From Streptomyces sp. NBC_01317 (GTDB taxonomy: Bacteria > Actinomycetota > Actinomycetes > Streptomycetales > Streptomycetaceae): a DNA stretch of 64,000 bases. Both the position numbers and the translations under genes were made by a program. Below the pieces are notes generated by a model, which was not told where the DNA came from, made no database searches, and saw only the letters and a program-made list of their open reading frames with translations. Positions within the stretch are counted from its first letter, which is position 1. Each line of letters begins with the position of its first letter. Shown here in pieces: positions 24,250-33,866 of this stretch. The stretch lies in contig NZ_CP108393.1 of the NCBI RefSeq assembly GCF_035961655.1, positions 4,137,501-4,201,500 on the forward strand, in the 5' to 3' direction.

Positions 24250-27080
24250 TCACCTGGTTCCACTCCTGGCGGGCCGCCCTGCGCATCGCCCGCCGCGACG
24301 CCTGGCGCTTCAAGGGCCGCAGCTTCCTCGTTCTCGCGATGATCGCCCTGCCCATCCTCGGGGTCAGCGCCGTGGATCTGACCGTACGGAGCGCGGACCT
24401 CTCCCCGCAGGAGACCCTGACGCGCGACCTCGGTCGCGCCGACGCCCGGCTCACCGATCCGGGGCTCGGCGGGGCACCCCTCCTCCAGGGGCCCCAGGGG
24501 AACGACTACGCCCCCGCGAAGGACTACGGCGACCAGGCGTGGCCGGACGGGGCGACCGACCTCAGGAAGGCGCTTCCCGCCGGTGCCACCACGCTGACGG
24601 ATTCGAGCGGCAGCGCGAAGCTCCGTACGACCCATGGGCTGCTCCAGGCCCAGGTCCGTGAGCTGAAGGCCACCGACCCGGCGGCCGAGGGGATCCTGCA
24701 CCTGGACCACGGCCGCTTCCCGGCCCGCGCCGACGAGGTCGCCGCGACCACCCAGTTCCTGGAGACCAGCGGACTGCGCGTCGGCTCGAAGCTCACCGCA
24801 CGCGGACTCGACACTCCCTACCGGATCGTCGGCGCCTACGAACTGCCCGACGAACTGAACACCGCGCAGATCAACGCCCTCCCCGGCGCGCTGCTCGCAC
24901 CGCTGGACCAGGCGCTCCAGGCCCAGGGGCTGGACAGTTCGCCCCCGGACACCACCCAGCTGGTCTCCGTTCCCGGTGGTTTCACGTGGAACATGGTCCA
25001 GCAGGCCAACACCAAGGGCGTGGCGGTCGTCTCGCGCGCCGTGATCCTCTCGCCGCCCGCCGACGCCGACGTGCCGCTCTACCAGAAGTCCGACTGGACC
25101 AGCTACCGGGACACGGCGACCGATCCGGCCGCGCTCGCCGCGGCGGGCACGGTGGTCGGCCTCGCCATGCTGGAGATCTGCCTGCTGGCCGGCCCCGCCT
25201 TCGCCGTCGGCGCCCGCCGCTCGCGCCGCCAGCTGGGCCTGGTCGGGGCCAACGGCGGCGACCGGCGCCACATCCGGGCCATCGTCCTCGGCGGCGGTCT
25301 GGTCATCGGGGTGGTCGCGGCGGTGGTCGGCACCGTCCTCGGCGTCGCCCTCACCTTCGCCCTGCGACCGGTCCTGGAGAGCTATCTGGGCAAGCGCTTC
25401 GGCAGCTTCGACGTACGACCGCTCGAACTGCTCGGGATCGCGGCGCTCGCCGTGCTCACCGGCCTGCTCGCCGCGATCGTCCCGGCGGTCACCGCGTCCC
25501 GCCAGACCGTCCTGGCGTCCCTCACCGGCCGGCGCGGCATCCGCCGGAGCAACCGGGTGCTGCCGGCCGTGGGCCTGGTCGCGATCCTGATCGGTGCGGC
25601 GATCGCGCTGTACGGATCGACCGTGTCGGACAGCTATGTGATCGTCGCGGGCGGCAGCGCCGTCGCCGAGCTGGGGGTGGTCGCGATGACCCCCGCCCTG
25701 GTGGGACTGTTCGGCAGGATGGGCCGCTGGCTGCCGCTCTCGCCCCGGCTGGCCCTGCGGGACGCCGTACGCAACCGGGGCCGTACGGCTCCGGCCGTCG
25801 CCGCCGTCCTGGCTGCGGTCGCGGGGACCGTGGCGGTGGCCACGTACACCGCGAGCAGCGACGCCCAGAACCGGGCCGCGTACGTCCCCGACCTGCCGAG
25901 CGGCGTGATATCGCTCGTCATCACCGACGACGGCGGCCGGGACGTGCCGGCCGCCCGCGCCGCCGTACAGCGGGAGCTGCCCGTCGCCGTGTCCGCGAAG
26001 GTCGACCGTCTTGTCGTCGGTCCGCCGCGCTGCTCGTCCGACAGCTCGGGCAAGGGCTGCGGGGCCGCCGAGGTGGTCGTACCGGACGCGAACCAGTGCC
26101 CGCTGTGGAAGGAGGAGAACGCCGACAAGGAGTTCACCTCCGCCGAACGCCTGAAATTGCGTGCCGATGCCCGCTGCCAGGACGTGGCCGTCTACCCCTC
26201 GGCGGGCGATGTGGTAGTCGGTGACAGCGCGCTCCTCCAGGTGCTCGGGATCAAGGACCCCGGCGCGAAGAAGGCACTGGCGGCGGGCGAGATCATCTCG
26301 TTCGACCCGCGCAACGTCGACACACGGGGACAGATCGGCATCCAGCTGATCCCCGACATCCGCGCGGCCGACAAGGCCAGGGGGCAGGGCACGAAGCCGC
26401 CGGGTGACATCAAGAAGTTCACCGCGCACAAGGTCCCCGGCAAGCAGAACGCGTACGGGTTCAAGATGATCGTCCCGGCCGCGGCGGCCAAGGCGGCGGG
26501 CTTCGGCGTCGTCCCGATCGGCGGCTACTGGTCGACCACCGAGATGCCCGGCGGAGCGCAGGAGCAGCGGCTCACCTCCGATCTCGACGCGTTCGGCGCC
26601 AACGCCTCCCTCGACATCGAGAAGGGGTACGTCGGCGAGAACAACATCGTGCTCCTCGCCCTGGGCGTCTTCGCCGGGCTGGTGACCATCGGCGCCGCCG
26701 GGATCGCCACCGGTCTCGCGCAGGCCGACGCCGAAGCCGACCTCAAGACGCTCGCCGCGGTCGGCGCGCCGTCCCGGGTCCGCAGGACCCTCAGCGGATT
26801 CCAGTGCGGGCTGGTGGCGGGGATGGGCGTCCTGCTCGGCACCGCCGCGGGGCTGCTCCCCGCCGTCGCCCTCCGGCTGACCGAGCGGCGGGAGGGGGAG
26901 AGCCGCTACCGGCAGGCGCTCACCGACGGCCTGAGCGACGCCGTCGCGCCGCACGTCCCGATCATCGTCCCGTGGGGGACGCTGGCCGCCCTGCTGATCG
27001 CGGTCCCGGTGGGCGCGGCCCTGCTGGCCGCCGTGGTCACCCGGTCGCACGGAACACTGGGCCGCCGCGCGGCCACGTAG
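24246..27080 (+). CDS. ABC transporter permease, FtsX-like, large
   Basis: A 944-residue membrane protein with two FtsX domains: an N-terminal membrane helix (SFLVLAMIALPILGVSAVDL), a large extracellular region, a block of helices near 300-430, a second exterior domain rich in Cys/Lys/Asp (near 590-790), and C-terminal helices. Four Cys in the second exterior segment (PRCSS, KGCGA, NQCPL, ARCQD) suggest disulfides. Such proteins usually act on peptides, antibiotics or lipids without transmembrane transport in the classical sense. GTG at 24246 overlaps the ATPase stop. Substrate unknown. Confidence 0.93.
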   Translation: MITWFHSWRAALRIARRDAWRFKGRSFLVLAMIALPILGVSAVDLTVRSADLSPQETLTRDLGRADARLTDPGLGGAPLLQGPQGNDYAPAKDYGDQAWPDGATDLRKALPAGATTLTDSSGSAKLRTTHGLLQAQVRELKATDPAAEGILHLDHGRFPARADEVAATTQFLETSGLRVGSKLTARGLDTPYRIVGAYELPDELNTAQINALPGALLAPLDQALQAQGLDSSPPDTTQLVSVPGGFTWNMVQQANTKGVAVVSRAVILSPPADADVPLYQKSDWTSYRDTATDPAALAAAGTVVGLAMLEICLLAGPAFAVGARRSRRQLGLVGANGGDRRHIRAIVLGGGLVIGVVAAVVGTVLGVALTFALRPVLESYLGKRFGSFDVRPLELLGIAALAVLTGLLAAIVPAVTASRQTVLASLTGRRGIRRSNRVLPAVGLVAILIGAAIALYGSTVSDSYVIVAGGSAVAELGVVAMTPALVGLFGRMGRWLPLSPRLALRDAVRNRGRTAPAVAAVLAAVAGTVAVATYTASSDAQNRAAYVPDLPSGVISLVITDDGGRDVPAARAAVQRELPVAVSAKVDRLVVGPPRCSSDSSGKGCGAAEVVVPDANQCPLWKEENADKEFTSAERLKLRADARCQDVAVYPSAGDVVVGDSALLQVLGIKDPGAKKALAAGEIISFDPRNVDTRGQIGIQLIPDIRAADKARGQGTKPPGDIKKFTAHKVPGKQNAYGFKMIVPAAAAKAAGFGVVPIGGYWSTTEMPGGAQEQRLTSDLDAFGANASLDIEKGYVGENNIVLLALGVFAGLVTIGAAGIATGLAQADAEADLKTLAAVGAPSRVRRTLSGFQCGLVAGMGVLLGTAAGLLPAVALRLTERREGESRYRQALTDGLSDAVAPHVPIIVPWGTLAALLIAVPVGAALLAAVVTRSHGTLGRRAAT
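24979..24992. promoter_or_regulatory. parS-like site with one mismatch
   Basis: GTTTCACGTGGAAC matches the Streptomyces parS palindrome GTTTCACGTGAAAC at 13 of 14 positions. It is inside the permease gene. Only a weak candidate beside the perfect site 5 kb away. Confidence 0.35.
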
Positions 27081-27674: not shown

Positions 27675-27707
27675 GTGTGCGGCACCCCTCAGTGGGGTGC
27701 CGCACAC
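27675..27707 (+). terminator. bpa terminator hairpin
   Basis: A perfect 14-bp stem (GTGTGCGGCACCCC and complement) with a 5-nt TCAGT loop, 28 bp after the bpa stop. Its right arm is the first half of repeat copy 1 in the adjoining array. Confidence 0.85.
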
Positions 27708-27793
27708 CCTCCGCCGGTGGGGTGCCGCACACCCTCCGCCGGTGGGGTGCCGCACACCCTCCGCCGGTGGGGTGCGGCACACCCTCCGCCGAT
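27694..27793. repeat. Four-copy 25-bp tandem repeat array
   Basis: Four head-to-tail 25-bp units at 27694, 27719, 27744 and 27769. Units 1-3 are identical (GGGGTGCCGCACACC then CTCCGCCGGT). Unit 4 differs at two bases; one turns GTGCCGCAC into its own complement GTGCGGCAC, so unit 4 can fold with units 1-3 into a 9-bp stem close to the stop of the leftward oxidoreductase. The array separates convergent genes. No spacers, so not CRISPR. Confidence 0.95.
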
Positions 27794-28859: not shown

Positions 28860-29948
28860 TCAGCTCCCGGCCTCCGGATCCGTGGGGTTCTGGGCGCGCA
28901 CGATGGTGATCAGCCGGTCGGTCAGCTGGAGCGGGCTCGCGGACGGATCGTCGTAACCGATCAGCCGGTGCCCGCGCAGCACGCTCACCACCAGGTCCTC
29001 GGTCTCCCGTACGTTCCGGCCCACCTCCGCCTTTATGACGGGCCGTTCGATGAGATCCAGCCCGGTGCCCTGCTGGATCAGGTCCTCCATCACCGTGCCG
29101 GCCATCGGGCTGAGCACGGACATCCCGAGGAGCCGGCCGGCCGCGCTGGCGCTGGTGATCACCGCGTCGGCGCCGGACTGGCGCAGCAGCGGCGCGTTCT
29201 CCTCCTCGCGGACGGCGGCGACGATCTTCGCCGACCGGTTGAGCTGGCGCGCGGTCAGCGTGACCAGCACGGCCGTGTCGTCCCGCTGGGTGGCGATGAC
29301 AATCTGACGGGCCTTCTGGACCTCGGCACGCAACAGCACTTCGCTGCGGGTCGCGTCGCCGAGGACCCCGACGAACCCCTGGGCGTTGGCGGCCTCGATC
29401 ACCTTGGCCGACGGGTCGACGATGACGATCTGGTCCTTCCTGAGACCCGTGGCGCACAGGGTCTGCATCGCCGACCGCCCCTTGGTGCCGTATCCGACGA
29501 TGACCGTGTGCTCGCGCAAGTGGGACCTCCAGCGGTTCTGCCGCCATTCCTCACGGGTGCGTTCCGTGAGGACCTCAAGTGTGGTGCCGACCAGGATGAT
29601 GAGGAACAGCACGCGCAGGGGGGTCACGAGCAGCACATTGACCAGCCGTGCGCTGTCGCTGTACGGGACGATGTCGCCGTAACCGGTCGTGGAGAGTGTG
29701 ACGGTGGCGTAGTAGACGGCGTCGAGGAAGTCGACCGAGTCGTCCGAGTTGTCGTGGTAGCCCTTGTTGTCGATCCAGACGATGAAGACCGTCACGAACA
29801 GCACCACCAGCGCCATCACGAGACGGCGGGTCACCTGGACGAGCGGTCGGCTGACCTGCTGACGTGGCAACTGCACCCGAGCGCTGACCAAATGCTCGTC
29901 GGCGTTCCTGGCTATGGCGTCATGGCCGGGAAGTTTCACGTGAAACAC
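28860..29948 (-). CDS. Potassium channel with TrkA-N (RCK) domain
   Basis: A 362-residue ligand-gated K+ channel subunit. A first helix (LVMALVVLFVTVFIVWI, 43-59), pore loop with selectivity filter TTGYGD (87-92), second helix (VNVLLVTPLRVLFLIILVG), then an RCK domain with the NAD-binding GYGTKGRSA (about 152) and IVDPSAKVIEAA, and a TrkA-C-like tail. The ATG lies within a parS palindrome: codons 2-5 (FHVK) are read from it. It overlaps the moeA-like gene by 13 bp. Confidence 0.93.
   Translation of the reverse strand: MFHVKLPGHDAIARNADEHLVSARVQLPRQQVSRPLVQVTRRLVMALVVLFVTVFIVWIDNKGYHDNSDDSVDFLDAVYYATVTLSTTGYGDIVPYSDSARLVNVLLVTPLRVLFLIILVGTTLEVLTERTREEWRQNRWRSHLREHTVIVGYGTKGRSAMQTLCATGLRKDQIVIVDPSAKVIEAANAQGFVGVLGDATRSEVLLRAEVQKARQIVIATQRDDTAVLVTLTARQLNRSAKIVAAVREEENAPLLRQSGADAVITSASAAGRLLGMSVLSPMAGTVMEDLIQQGTGLDLIERPVIKAEVGRNVRETEDLVVSVLRGHRLIGYDDPSASPLQLTDRLITIVRAQNPTDPEAGS
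29933..29946. promoter_or_regulatory. parS: parS (ParB binding site)
   Basis: The perfect 14-bp palindrome GTTTCACGTGAAAC, identical to the Streptomyces parS consensus bound by ParB for segregation of the oriC region. Extended to 16 bp it differs from the TGTTTCACGTGAAACA consensus at one end only. It lies in the overlap of two protein genes. Confidence 0.93.
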
Positions 29949-31531
29949 CCGCCGTCGGTCGAAGCGGTCCAGGGCAGGTCAAGAATGTCGACGTCCTCAC
30001 CGGGCCGCGCGCCGCCCGGCGGGACGACCGCCAGCCCGTCTGCGGCGGCGACGCCCCGCAGCATGGCCGGACCGTTGAAGTGCAGCGGCACCACCGCGTC
30101 GTCGCGGTGGACCACCGGGACGAGCCGGGTGTCGTACGGATGGCCCCGCACCTCGTCGCGCAGCGGCGCCCGGTACGGCGGGGGCGCCGGGCGGCCGGCG
30201 AGCGCCCGGAGCAGGGGTTCGGCGAGCGTCAGCAGTCCGGAGACGGCGGCGAGGGGGTTGCCGGGCAGCCCCACCAGATGCCGTCCCGAGGGCAACCGGG
30301 CCAGGACCATGGGGTGTCCGGGACGTACGGCGACCCCGTCGACCAGCAACTCGGCCTCGGCGGCCCGGAGTACGGGGTGGACATGGTCGACCGGGCCGCC
30401 GGCCGTACCGCCGGTCGTGATGACCAGGTCGGCCGTGGACCCGGTCACCGCGCGGTACAGGTCGTCCTCGTCGTCACCGATCCGGCGGGTGGCGACCACC
30501 TCCACGCCGAGCGCGCGCAGCCAGGGCGCGAGCATCGGCCCCAGTGCGTCCCGGATGAACCCGTCGCGGGGGAGCCCCTCGGTCAGCAACTCGTCGCCGA
30601 GCACGAGCACTTCGACGGCGGGCCGGGGGACGGTCAGCAGCTCGTCGTAACCGGCGGCGGCGGCCAGGCCCAGCACGGCCGGGGTCACCGGCGACCCGGC
30701 GGGGAGCAACGGCTCGCCCGAGCGGCACTCCTGGCCCCGCGACCTGATGTCCTGGCCGGGGACGACCACGCGTTCGGCGTGGAGACGGCCGGTGCCGTCG
30801 GTACGGGCGTGCTCGCTGCGGATCACGGCGGTCGCCTCGGGCGGTACCCGCGCGCCGGTGGCGATCCGTACCGCGGAGCCGTCGGGAAGCGGTACGGACT
30901 CGCCGTCTCCGGCGAGGATGCCGGACCGCTCGGCCGCGTCACCCCCTACGGGCGTGCCCTCCGGAGTCCTGACGGTCCAGGGGCCGGGGCCCGCGACCGC
31001 CCAGCCGTCCATGGCGGAGGTGTCGAACGACGGGAGGTCGGTGAGCGCGACCAGCGCCTCGGCGAGCACCTCGCCCAGGGCGTGTTCGAGGGCCACGCGC
31101 CGGGCCCGCGCGGCCGGGGCGGCCCGCCCCGAAGCCCCGGCGAGGTCCCGCGCGTCGGCCCAGTCCGTACCGTGGCGCCGATCGCCCCCGGGCGCACGGT
31201 CACCGGCGGGCCGGTCACCGCCGGGGTCCTGGCGGTGCGCGTGGTCGTGGCCGTGATCGTGCCCCTGGTCGTGGCCGTGGTCGTGATCGACCTCGGACGC
31301 CGGATCGCGGGGCTGGCCGTGCGGGGCAGGCGTGTGGCGCGCGTCGGACGGGTCCTTCTGGTCGTGGATCTGCTGGGCGTCGATGTCGTACGGCACGTCG
31401 GCGTCGTACGGGACGTACCCGTCCGGCGAGTGGTACGGCGCGCGCGGCGACGGGTGCGCGCGGGACCGGTCCCTCGCCACCAGGGCCAGAGCCTCCTCGA
31501 CGCCCTCGACCTCGCGGTCCTGGGCGGTCAT
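29936..31531 (-). CDS. MoeA-like molybdopterin molybdenumtransferase with His-rich N-terminal extension
   Basis: A 531-residue protein; typical MoeA is about 400. The first 110 residues are extra and include a His/Asp/Gly tract (DHDHGHDQGHDHGHDHAH, about 83-100), likely metal-binding. The MoeA core follows: SFDTSAMDGWAV, RIATGARVPPEATAV, and LPGNPLAAVSG near the end. The canonical TxGGxSxGxxD motif is altered to TTGGTAGGPVDH. It should insert molybdate into adenylylated molybdopterin, if active. ATG overlaps the mobA-like stop by 4 bp; its own stop overlaps the channel gene and parS. Confidence 0.85.
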   Translation of the reverse strand: MTAQDREVEGVEEALALVARDRSRAHPSPRAPYHSPDGYVPYDADVPYDIDAQQIHDQKDPSDARHTPAPHGQPRDPASEVDHDHGHDQGHDHGHDHAHRQDPGGDRPAGDRAPGGDRRHGTDWADARDLAGASGRAAPAARARRVALEHALGEVLAEALVALTDLPSFDTSAMDGWAVAGPGPWTVRTPEGTPVGGDAAERSGILAGDGESVPLPDGSAVRIATGARVPPEATAVIRSEHARTDGTGRLHAERVVVPGQDIRSRGQECRSGEPLLPAGSPVTPAVLGLAAAAGYDELLTVPRPAVEVLVLGDELLTEGLPRDGFIRDALGPMLAPWLRALGVEVVATRRIGDDEDDLYRAVTGSTADLVITTGGTAGGPVDHVHPVLRAAEAELLVDGVAVRPGHPMVLARLPSGRHLVGLPGNPLAAVSGLLTLAEPLLRALAGRPAPPPYRAPLRDEVRGHPYDTRLVPVVHRDDAVVPLHFNGPAMLRGVAAADGLAVVPPGGARPGEDVDILDLPWTASTDGGCFT

Positions 31532-32418
31532 CCGGCGTCGGCCCCCTTGGCGCCCCCGGCGTCCGCGGCGGGACCGTCGGTCCCGGCCGCCTCGTCGGCC
31601 CAGCGCAGGGCCAGCGCCACCGCCTTGCGGGTCGCCGCCTCCACCGCCTCGGGACCGTCTCCGCCGGCCCGGCCCGCCGCGTACCCGACCAGGAAGGTCG
31701 TCAGCGGGGCGGCGGGCCTGGCGACGCCGTGCGCGGCGTCACGGGCGAGGTCCAGGAGGAGAGGGATGTCGACGTCCAGCTCGATGCCGAGTTCGTCCTT
31801 GACTGCGGTGATCCATTCGTCCAGCACGGTCCCATGCTCTCTGATACGGGCCCGGGCCGTGGAGATGTCTTCCCAGGTGTCGCAGTCGAACGAGGCGAAG
31901 GGATCGGCATCGACGCGGGCGAGGTCGAGTTCGTGCGACAGCAGACGCAGGGGCAGACCGGTGAGGTTCCCGTGTTCCGTGGCCAGCAGGGCCAGTTCAC
32001 GGCGCAGCGGCTCGGCCCGGTAGGCGGCGACCAGCGGCTGGTCCCGCCCGTCGGCGTCGACCAGCAGCGCCGCCTCCCGGCCGCTGGTGTCCAGCGTCCC
32101 GATCAGCCGGTGGACCGTCGGGGCGCCCAGGAACGGCAGGTCGGCGGAGAGGACGATCACGGTGTCCGCCTCGACGTCGCGCACCCCCGCGTCGAGCGCG
32201 GCGAGCGGCCCGCCGCCCGGCGGGTCCTCCCGCGCCCAGCGCACGGGTCGGACCGTTGGGCGCCGGCCGCCCACGACGACGGTCCTGCCGGCCCCTTCAC
32301 AGGCCGCCAGGACCCGGTCGAGCAGAGCACGGCCACCGACACGCACGGCGGGCTTGTCGATCCCGCCGAGGCGCTTGGCGGCGCCTCCGGCGAGCACGAT
32401 GGCGTCATACGCGGTCAT
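31528..32418 (-). CDS. MobA-like molybdenum cofactor nucleotidyltransferase with DUF6457-like tail
   Basis: A 296-residue protein. The N-terminal 190 residues are a MobA-type NTP transferase: VLAGGAAKRLGGIDKPAV (nucleotide loop), DLPFLGAPTVHRLI (metal-binding Asp). Residues 205-275 are a separate helical domain (LDEWITAVKDELGIELDVD; TFLVGYAAGRAGG) seen in actinobacteria as DUF6457, usually as a short neighbouring protein. It attaches a nucleotide to molybdopterin and pairs with the overlapping moeA-like gene. The fusion is uncommon. Confidence 0.85.
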   Translation of the reverse strand: MTAYDAIVLAGGAAKRLGGIDKPAVRVGGRALLDRVLAACEGAGRTVVVGGRRPTVRPVRWAREDPPGGGPLAALDAGVRDVEADTVIVLSADLPFLGAPTVHRLIGTLDTSGREAALLVDADGRDQPLVAAYRAEPLRRELALLATEHGNLTGLPLRLLSHELDLARVDADPFASFDCDTWEDISTARARIREHGTVLDEWITAVKDELGIELDVDIPLLLDLARDAAHGVARPAAPLTTFLVGYAAGRAGGDGPEAVEAATRKAVALALRWADEAAGTDGPAADAGGAKGADAG

Positions 32419-32483
32419 GCCAGAAGTATGAGCCGCGATCGGCCTTTCGAAGCACGGACCCCGGTCCGGGTCACCTGCTTCTC

Positions 32484-33866
32484 TCAGAGGGTCCGCAGGA
32501 GCACCGCCGGGTTCTCGACGCAGTCCGCCACATAACGGAGGAAGCCGCCCGCCGTACCGCCGTCGCAGACCCGGTGGTCGAAGGTGAGGGACAGCTGGAC
32601 GACCTGCCGTACGGCCAACTCCCCCTGGTGCACCCACGGCTTGGGGATGATCCGGCCCACCCCGAGCATCGCGGCCTCCGGGTGATTGATGATCGGCGTC
32701 GAACCGTCGACCCCGAACACCCCGTAGTTGTTGAGCGTGAACGTCCCGCCGGTCAGGTCGCCCGGTGTCAGCGTGCCGGAGCGGCCCGCCTCCGTCAGGC
32801 GGGCGAACTCGGCGCTCAGGGACTCCGCGTCACGGCGGTGCGCGTCCCGCACGACCGGGACCACCAGCCCGCGCTCGGTCTGGGCGGCGAAGCCCAGATG
32901 GACGCCGGGCAGCCGCACGATCTCCTTGGCGGCCAGGTCCACCGTGGAGTTCAGCTCCGGGTGACGGGCGAGGCCCGCGACACAGATCCGGGCGAGCAGC
33001 GCGAGGAGGGAGATCTTCGGGCCGCCGGCCGCGTTCATCGCCGTACGGGCCGCCATCAGCTCCGTCGCGTCCGCGTCGACCCAGCAGGTGGCGTCCGGGA
33101 TCTCGTGGCGGCTGCGGGACAGCTTGTCCGCGACCGCGCCCCGTACGCCCCGCAGCGGCACCCGGACGACGTCCGGCCGCGCGCTCACGGATCCGGCGGT
33201 TCCCGCCGCCTCCGTGGACTCGGAGGCAGGGGTCTGCGCCTCCGTGGCCGCCCGCCGGACGGCCTGTTCGACGTCCGAGCGCAGGATCAGGCCCTCGCGC
33301 CCCGAACCCGTCAGCGTCCGTAGATCGAGGCCGTTCTCCCGCGCGAGCCTGCGGACCAGCGGCGACACGACCGCGACAGGACCGGCGGGACCGGCGGACC
33401 CGTTCGCCCGCGCCACAACGGGCGCGGGCACGGGAGCCACCGCCGGCGCGGCGGGGACGGAAGCGACCGCCGGGGACGCCTGCCGGACCCGGCGCCTGCG
33501 CGCGGCGGGCGCGCCCGTGCCGTACCCGACCAGCACATTGCCCGACCCCTCGTCGGCCGGCGACGTCTCCGGAGCGGCGGCCTTCTCCGGTGCCTGCCCC
33601 CCGTCCGCCACGGGCTCGGACGCGCCTACCGCGACGGTCAGCAGCGGGGCCCCGACGGGCAGCTCCGTGCCCTCCTCGCCGTAGCGCGCGGTGACCACAC
33701 CCCCGTACGGGCAGGGCACCTCGACCATCGCCTTGGCCGTCTCGACCTCCACGACCGGCTGGTCTATGGCGACGACGTCGCCCACCTCCACCAGCCAGTG
33801 GACGATCTCCGCCTCGGTCAGTCCCTCCCCGAGGTCGGGCAGCCTGAATTCGAGCACCTGGGCCAT
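32484..33866 (-). CDS. Dihydrolipoamide acyltransferase E2 (copy 2)
   Basis: A 460-residue E2: one lipoyl domain with Lys in ETAKA (about 44), Pro/Ala linker, peripheral subunit-binding domain near 170-205 (VSPLVRRLARENGLDL), and catalytic acyltransferase with HRVCDG near the end. ATG overlaps the E1beta stop by one base (TGATG). Last gene of the second dehydrogenase operon, next to its own Lrp regulator. It is about 36 residues shorter in linker than copy 1. Confidence 0.93.
   Translation of the reverse strand: MAQVLEFRLPDLGEGLTEAEIVHWLVEVGDVVAIDQPVVEVETAKAMVEVPCPYGGVVTARYGEEGTELPVGAPLLTVAVGASEPVADGGQAPEKAAAPETSPADEGSGNVLVGYGTGAPAARRRRVRQASPAVASVPAAPAVAPVPAPVVARANGSAGPAGPVAVVSPLVRRLARENGLDLRTLTGSGREGLILRSDVEQAVRRAATEAQTPASESTEAAGTAGSVSARPDVVRVPLRGVRGAVADKLSRSRHEIPDATCWVDADATELMAARTAMNAAGGPKISLLALLARICVAGLARHPELNSTVDLAAKEIVRLPGVHLGFAAQTERGLVVPVVRDAHRRDAESLSAEFARLTEAGRSGTLTPGDLTGGTFTLNNYGVFGVDGSTPIINHPEAAMLGVGRIIPKPWVHQGELAVRQVVQLSLTFDHRVCDGGTAGGFLRYVADCVENPAVLLRTL

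Follow-up and report, generated by a model that had tools for sequence, protein, structure and literature searches.

In many Streptomyces, one chromosome segregation site appears to provide both the stop codon that ends one gene and the start codon that opens the following one. Here, we report such a site in a 64,000-nucleotide stretch of a Streptomyces genome (hereafter the window). The site is the 14-bp palindrome GTTTCACGTGAAAC, a parS, and it lies on the junction between a moeA-like gene and a K+ channel gene (Table 1). Its position, its place in relatives, the two codons and its recurrence at cydD can be read directly from the DNA. We consider it very probable that parS supplies both the moeA stop and the channel start at this junction and is kept there as a binding site for ParB.

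The palindrome is perfect and, as the original prediction held, matches the Streptomyces ParB-binding sequence letter for letter. The 8.07-Mb single-contig genome, whose nearest named relatives are Streptomyces, contains 13 exact copies plus one copy with a single mismatch. At the window's base composition a genome of 8.07 Mb should contain only 0.003 exact copies, and the reversed 14-mer, used as a control, has no copies in this genome; the 13 copies are thus not due to chance. Twelve of them fall within 4.167–4.295 Mb, around parA/parB. A ParA-like gene and a ParB gene are found at about 4.234–4.236 Mb; the protein encoded by the latter (gene at about 4.235 Mb) has ParB_N, HTH_ParB and ParB_C domains, and about 68 kb separate parB from the junction site. 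Across 41 genomes of the genus, including this one, we counted 7–36 exact copies each, and the reversed control is absent from all 41. The classification of the junction site as parS is based on the exact 14-bp palindrome, the clustering near parAB and its retention in place in relatives. We infer that ParB binds at this site, which would work as an ordinary parS, a loading site for ParB, and that this binding is what holds the 14 bases fixed.

These features agree with what is available to us of the published accounts. ParB of S. venezuelae binds its 16–17 parS by ChIP-seq and S. coelicolor has 23 plus 1 parS (PMC4852455, PMC12511625), and a mean of 22.8 was reported for 20 closed genomes (PMC8743542). 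The site described here belongs to the same kind of cluster, with the same 14-mer near parAB and copy numbers in the 41 genomes that match the published counts. It differs in that it also provides a stop codon and, probably, a start codon, a role that the accessible portions of these papers do not mention for the published sites.

Table 1. Features at and around the junction parS (window positions).
Feature	Position	Strand	Basis
parS GTTTCACGTGAAAC	29933–29946	.	Exact match; at this place in 94/128 genus-sample genomes that have the channel gene
Central GTG of parS, most likely channel start codon	29937–29939	-	Shine-Dalgarno comparison and parS-less orthologues
Stop codon TGA of the moeA-like gene; with the channel start it forms GTGA (29936–29939)	29936–29938	-	Sequence and junction reading in relatives
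GGCGGGTGT, resembling a Shine-Dalgarno sequence, upstream of the central GTG	29945–29953	-	Moderate match
GTG taken as the start in the original prediction, probably a by-product of the parS flank	29946–29948	-	GCG in 3/42 loci; GCG or ACG in 3/94
K+ channel gene with C-terminal TrkA_N, start revised	28860–29939	-	Pfam Ion_trans_2 and TrkA_N over cut-off
moeA-like gene	29936–31531	-	MoeA_N, MoCF_biosynth and MoeA_C domains
MobA-like NTP transferase with DUF6457, start uncertain	31528–32637	-	Domain match

The genes form an operon-like run on the minus strand, in the order MobA-like/DUF6457, moeA-like, K+ channel. The TGA of the mobA-like gene overlaps the ATG of the moeA-like gene by 4 bp (ATGA, 31528–31531). 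The original prediction was right that parS touches the moeA-like stop and the 5' end of the channel gene; the TGA (29938–29936) lies entirely inside it.

The longest open reading frame of the channel begins at GTG 29948, and the original prediction adopted this start, with a 13-bp overlap with moeA and a channel beginning MFHVK that reads FHVK from parS. We regard this as improbable; the most likely start of the channel is the central GTG of parS (29939–29937). The Shine-Dalgarno comparison used equal search zones for both candidate starts (spacing 4–11) and covered 42 parS loci: the window, 35 named and 6 unnamed loci. The central GTG had the better match in 40 of these, and two were ties. 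Among the 94 parS loci of a broader genus sample, described below, the central GTG had the better match in 87, with three ties, and four favour the upstream triplet. An earlier scan reached only 22 nt above the central GTG and was thereby biased against the upstream start; the equal-zone repeat agrees with its outcome. In the window itself the best duplex, CGGGTGT, is only moderate (-6.4 kcal/mol, spacer 5). A start at 29948 draws further support from an in-frame [GA]TG at that position in 91/94 genus-sample parS loci and 39/42 of the other set, but the triplet is explained by the common T flank of parS after a purine. It is GCG in L027, L029 and L034, which leaves these three of the 42 loci with no start codon there, and GCG or ACG in three of the 94.

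Orthologues that lack parS point the same way. All seven named examples have GGAGG, six bases and then GTGAAGCT (GTGAAG) at the codon matching the centre of parS, and in all seven the moeA TGA overlaps this start as GTGA. Given the central GTG, the same stop/start overlap is present in the window and in 85/94 genus-sample parS loci. Because the Shine-Dalgarno comparison, the missing upstream starts and the parS-less orthologues all favour the central GTG, an ordinary 4-bp GTGA overlap is most likely. The 13-bp overlap and the FHVK reading both require the start at 29948, which the comparative evidence disfavours, and were rejected; FHVK is probably not translated from this site. Start codons here are inferred from sequence comparison, and both the upstream and the central start may be used.

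The genus sample is an even draw of 131 Streptomyces genomes, 128 of which have the channel gene at E <= 1e-60. We read the junction in all 128; 36 of these came with the search matches and 92 were fetched separately. The channel starts inside an exact parS in 94 of the 128 genomes. For these 94, the moeA TGA lies in some parS in 89, and in 85 it is the same parS. Four others have the TGA in another, upstream parS copy (L066, L152, L154 and L156), four have it upstream and outside any parS (L069, L147, L161 and L189), and in one moeA was not found (L148). At the L147 junction (G038) several parS-like pieces, TTCACATGA, lie upstream of the channel parS, one of them holding the moeA stop; it looks as if these extra copies eroded and the copy at the start stayed intact.

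No parS occurs at the channel start in the remaining 34 of the 128 genomes. The N-terminus is alignable in 11 of these; the other 23 have non-aligning N-termini and other arrangements. The GTGA overlap is present in 10 of the 11 alignable loci, and L176 lies too close to the start of its contig for moeA to be read. These 11 starts differ from parS at 5–7 of the 14 positions, and those of the seven named parS-less loci at 5–6. Among these 18 starts we identified no half-decayed or intermediate parS. The named loci and the genus sample may share species and are hence counted apart (L066–L069 and L071 are in both). In a search of the wider family, 60/61 genomes matched and the best 30 loci (L065–L094), covering about half of the matching genomes, were read. 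The window genome and L066–L071, from the same genus, have parS at the start, and the 23 loci L072–L094 do not. L074 is again from the same genus; the other 22 are from other genera, and none of these 22 loci has parS at the channel start.

The original prediction also held that the overlap, and even the reading of both proteins, is shaped by parS. For the overlap this does not stand: the same GTGA is found in 7/7 parS-less named loci and in 10/10 parS-less loci of the genus sample whose N-terminus could be aligned and whose moeA stop could be read. We thus rejected parS as the reason that the overlap exists. As relatives without parS have the junction too, it was not created by parS, and its presence in them suggests that the GTGA junction is older than parS. 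For the proteins a small contribution remains. The site dictates the spacer ahead of the start, the GTG, a rare AAA as second codon, the first base of the codon after that, and the last residues of the moeA-like protein (..FT-stop). Codon 2 is AAA in 42/42 parS loci, versus 27/404 later Lys codons of the same genes, and AAA accounts for 15/307 Lys codons in long open reading frames of the window. In the seven named parS-less loci codon 2 is always AAG. The original prediction proposed looking in relatives for avoidance of silent changes; in many of them parS is kept at this place without any change, at silent positions as well.

We placed the loci on a tree (49 loci; L042, from Geodermatophilus and lacking parS, was left out). 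The 42 parS rows make up one side of a single branch, so the presence of parS counts as one event. The 14 parS columns show no changes in the 42 rows on a tree length of 4.0 changes per site; third codon positions on the same tree have a mean of 6.1 changes, and 9% have none. The absence of changes is partly by construction, because possession of the exact 14-mer was the criterion for choosing the 42 rows, and more weight falls on the missing intermediates. Fitch counts upstream of parS were set aside, the columns being non-homologous where a junction has several copies. Junctions with several parS copies mostly keep the moeA stop in one copy and the channel start in another. This state (12 rows; the states of L069, L010 and L019 were assigned by hand from the junction reading) requires five changes, at least four of them forced by well-supported branches. 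The gain or collapse of multi-copy junctions thus happened several times. The repeat in L066 takes in the first codons of the channel gene, which is what a tandem duplication would produce.

Stop-start overlaps of 4 bp, GTGA or ATGA, with translational coupling are a common type of gene junction. The junction described here is of this type, as are those of the parS-less relatives and, in the form ATGA, the mobA-moeA junction, except that in this case GTGA forms the core of a palindrome of the ParB type. On the minus strand, parS would be read as a GTTTCAC spacer, the GTG start, AAA as second codon and the first letter of the third. In the neighbouring frame its TGA ends the moeA-like protein. 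The palindrome has the usual overlap, GTGA, on both strands, and the half-site GTGAAAC reads start-Lys, an acceptable gene beginning. For these two reasons parS can be accommodated at a GTGA junction, and in our reading it was fitted into this one.

The exact placement of the 14-mer in the initiation region would also fit an element of translation initiation or an RNA hairpin that is kept for that role and not for ParB, and a weak 5-bp hairpin is possible (-2.3 kcal/mol). We consider this very unlikely. The 11 genus-sample orthologues with alignable N-termini lack the 14-mer, and the letters of its left arm vary among them. The other 12 exact copies in the genome lie mostly away from predicted gene starts. 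Folding of the initiation region is similar with and without parS (mean -15.3 kcal/mol in the 42 parS loci versus -13.5 kcal/mol in seven without), and a hairpin role gains no support from these values.

Other parS copies also meet genes at their ends. At a second site (L050:2064-2077; G000:C1:4295463-4295476) the central GTG is the likely start of cydD, identified by NCBIfam TIGR02857 (714 bits versus a cut-off of 435) and by cydB upstream. The gene was matched in 41/41 genomes, and in 32/32 orthologues examined (the 30 best loci plus L052 and L061) an exact parS has its central GTG as the start. In all 32 the central GTG has the better Shine-Dalgarno match, with the best match 7–11 nt before it. 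The triplet corresponding to the 29948 start is CTG in 4/32, which again speaks against an upstream start. Several genomes bear one to three further parS just upstream of cydD.

A third candidate lies at the beginning of a gene for a DUF2269-like membrane protein (L048:5327-5340; 0.1 bit below the Pfam cut-off). Here parS is at the beginning in 10/19 orthologues read, the 19 best of 29 loci (22/41 genomes match). Some orthologues without parS also retain an upstream GTG, and the parS-centred start is a candidate. Start-centred parS thus number two or three of the 13 in this genome. This is only modestly above chance (P about 0.02–0.05 for at least two, assuming a density of one gene per kb, with GTG making up 0.3–0.5 of the starts). 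In G011 it is the channel (60% identical) whose own stop, TGA, lies inside a parS (..ESFT-stop; L058:2077-2111), with a second parS 21 bp past the stop-bearing one.

One parS lies wholly within a gene of the YibE/F family (L049:2016-2029; G000:C1:4284915-4284928), where it supplies the FHVK of QFHVKQ (codons 140–143). The gene was matched in 41/41 genomes, and among the best 30 loci, which were read, only the window genome and L276 have this parS; the other 28 have 5–10 mismatches. The parS-less orthologues read, for example, QLHEGQ, and are mostly QLxxGQ-like. With the ancestral state taken from the majority of orthologues, parS seems to have arisen recently within this gene, at a cost of about three residues. 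The rewriting of a protein by parS, the idea behind the original prediction, is apparently what happened in this gene.

The position of the junction parS inside an operon-like run also allows for a regulatory role, in which bound ParB would hinder expression from moeA into the channel gene. In the available text on Pseudomonas aeruginosa, ParB represses promoters beside parS3 and parS4 (PMC7022226). We think such regulation unlikely at this site. A broader and speculative view, which we consider rather unlikely, is that in Streptomyces start codons near the origin serve as both nursery and refuge for parS. The GTGA core and the GTG-AAA-C half would pass as a ribosome start, so that parS would be tolerated there and then locked in, at the starts of genes for membrane and respiration proteins (the K+ channel, CydD and perhaps the DUF2269-like protein). 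In its boldest form, ParB occupancy and clamp loading at these starts would tie the state of the segregation complex to the expression of those genes.

Overlap of parS with protein-coding sequence has precedents, namely parS1 of Corynebacterium glutamicum in trpCF and the repABC replicons (PMC7083940, PMC9040568). As in those cases, a centromere site here overlaps protein code. Those sites lie inside coding sequence, in contrast, and the accessible parts of the two papers do not say that they give a start codon or a stop/start overlap. In the open-access literature, of which our coverage is incomplete and partly limited to excerpts, we found no report of parS serving as a start codon or enclosing a stop/start overlap.

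The junction shows how a DNA-binding site used across the chromosome can be built into those letters of genes that are under the tightest constraint. At such places a parS mutation would also hit a start or stop codon, and a segregation phenotype could be confused with loss of the channel or of CydD. The comparison also suggests gene starts that differ from those of the longest open reading frames. The kept rare codon, the multi-copy junctions and the apparently newly arisen parS inside a protein offer natural tests of selection on parS.

Two further features were seen in the window. A parS with one mismatch, GTTTCACGTGGAAC, lies at 24979–24992 on the plus strand; in the putative frame GGFTWN, the mismatch gives TGG where parS would give a TGA stop. 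Four near-perfect copies of a 25-bp repeat, GTGGGGTGCCGCACACCCTCCGCCG, occupy 27692–27791 and adjoin the 3' end of a quinone-oxidoreductase-like gene.
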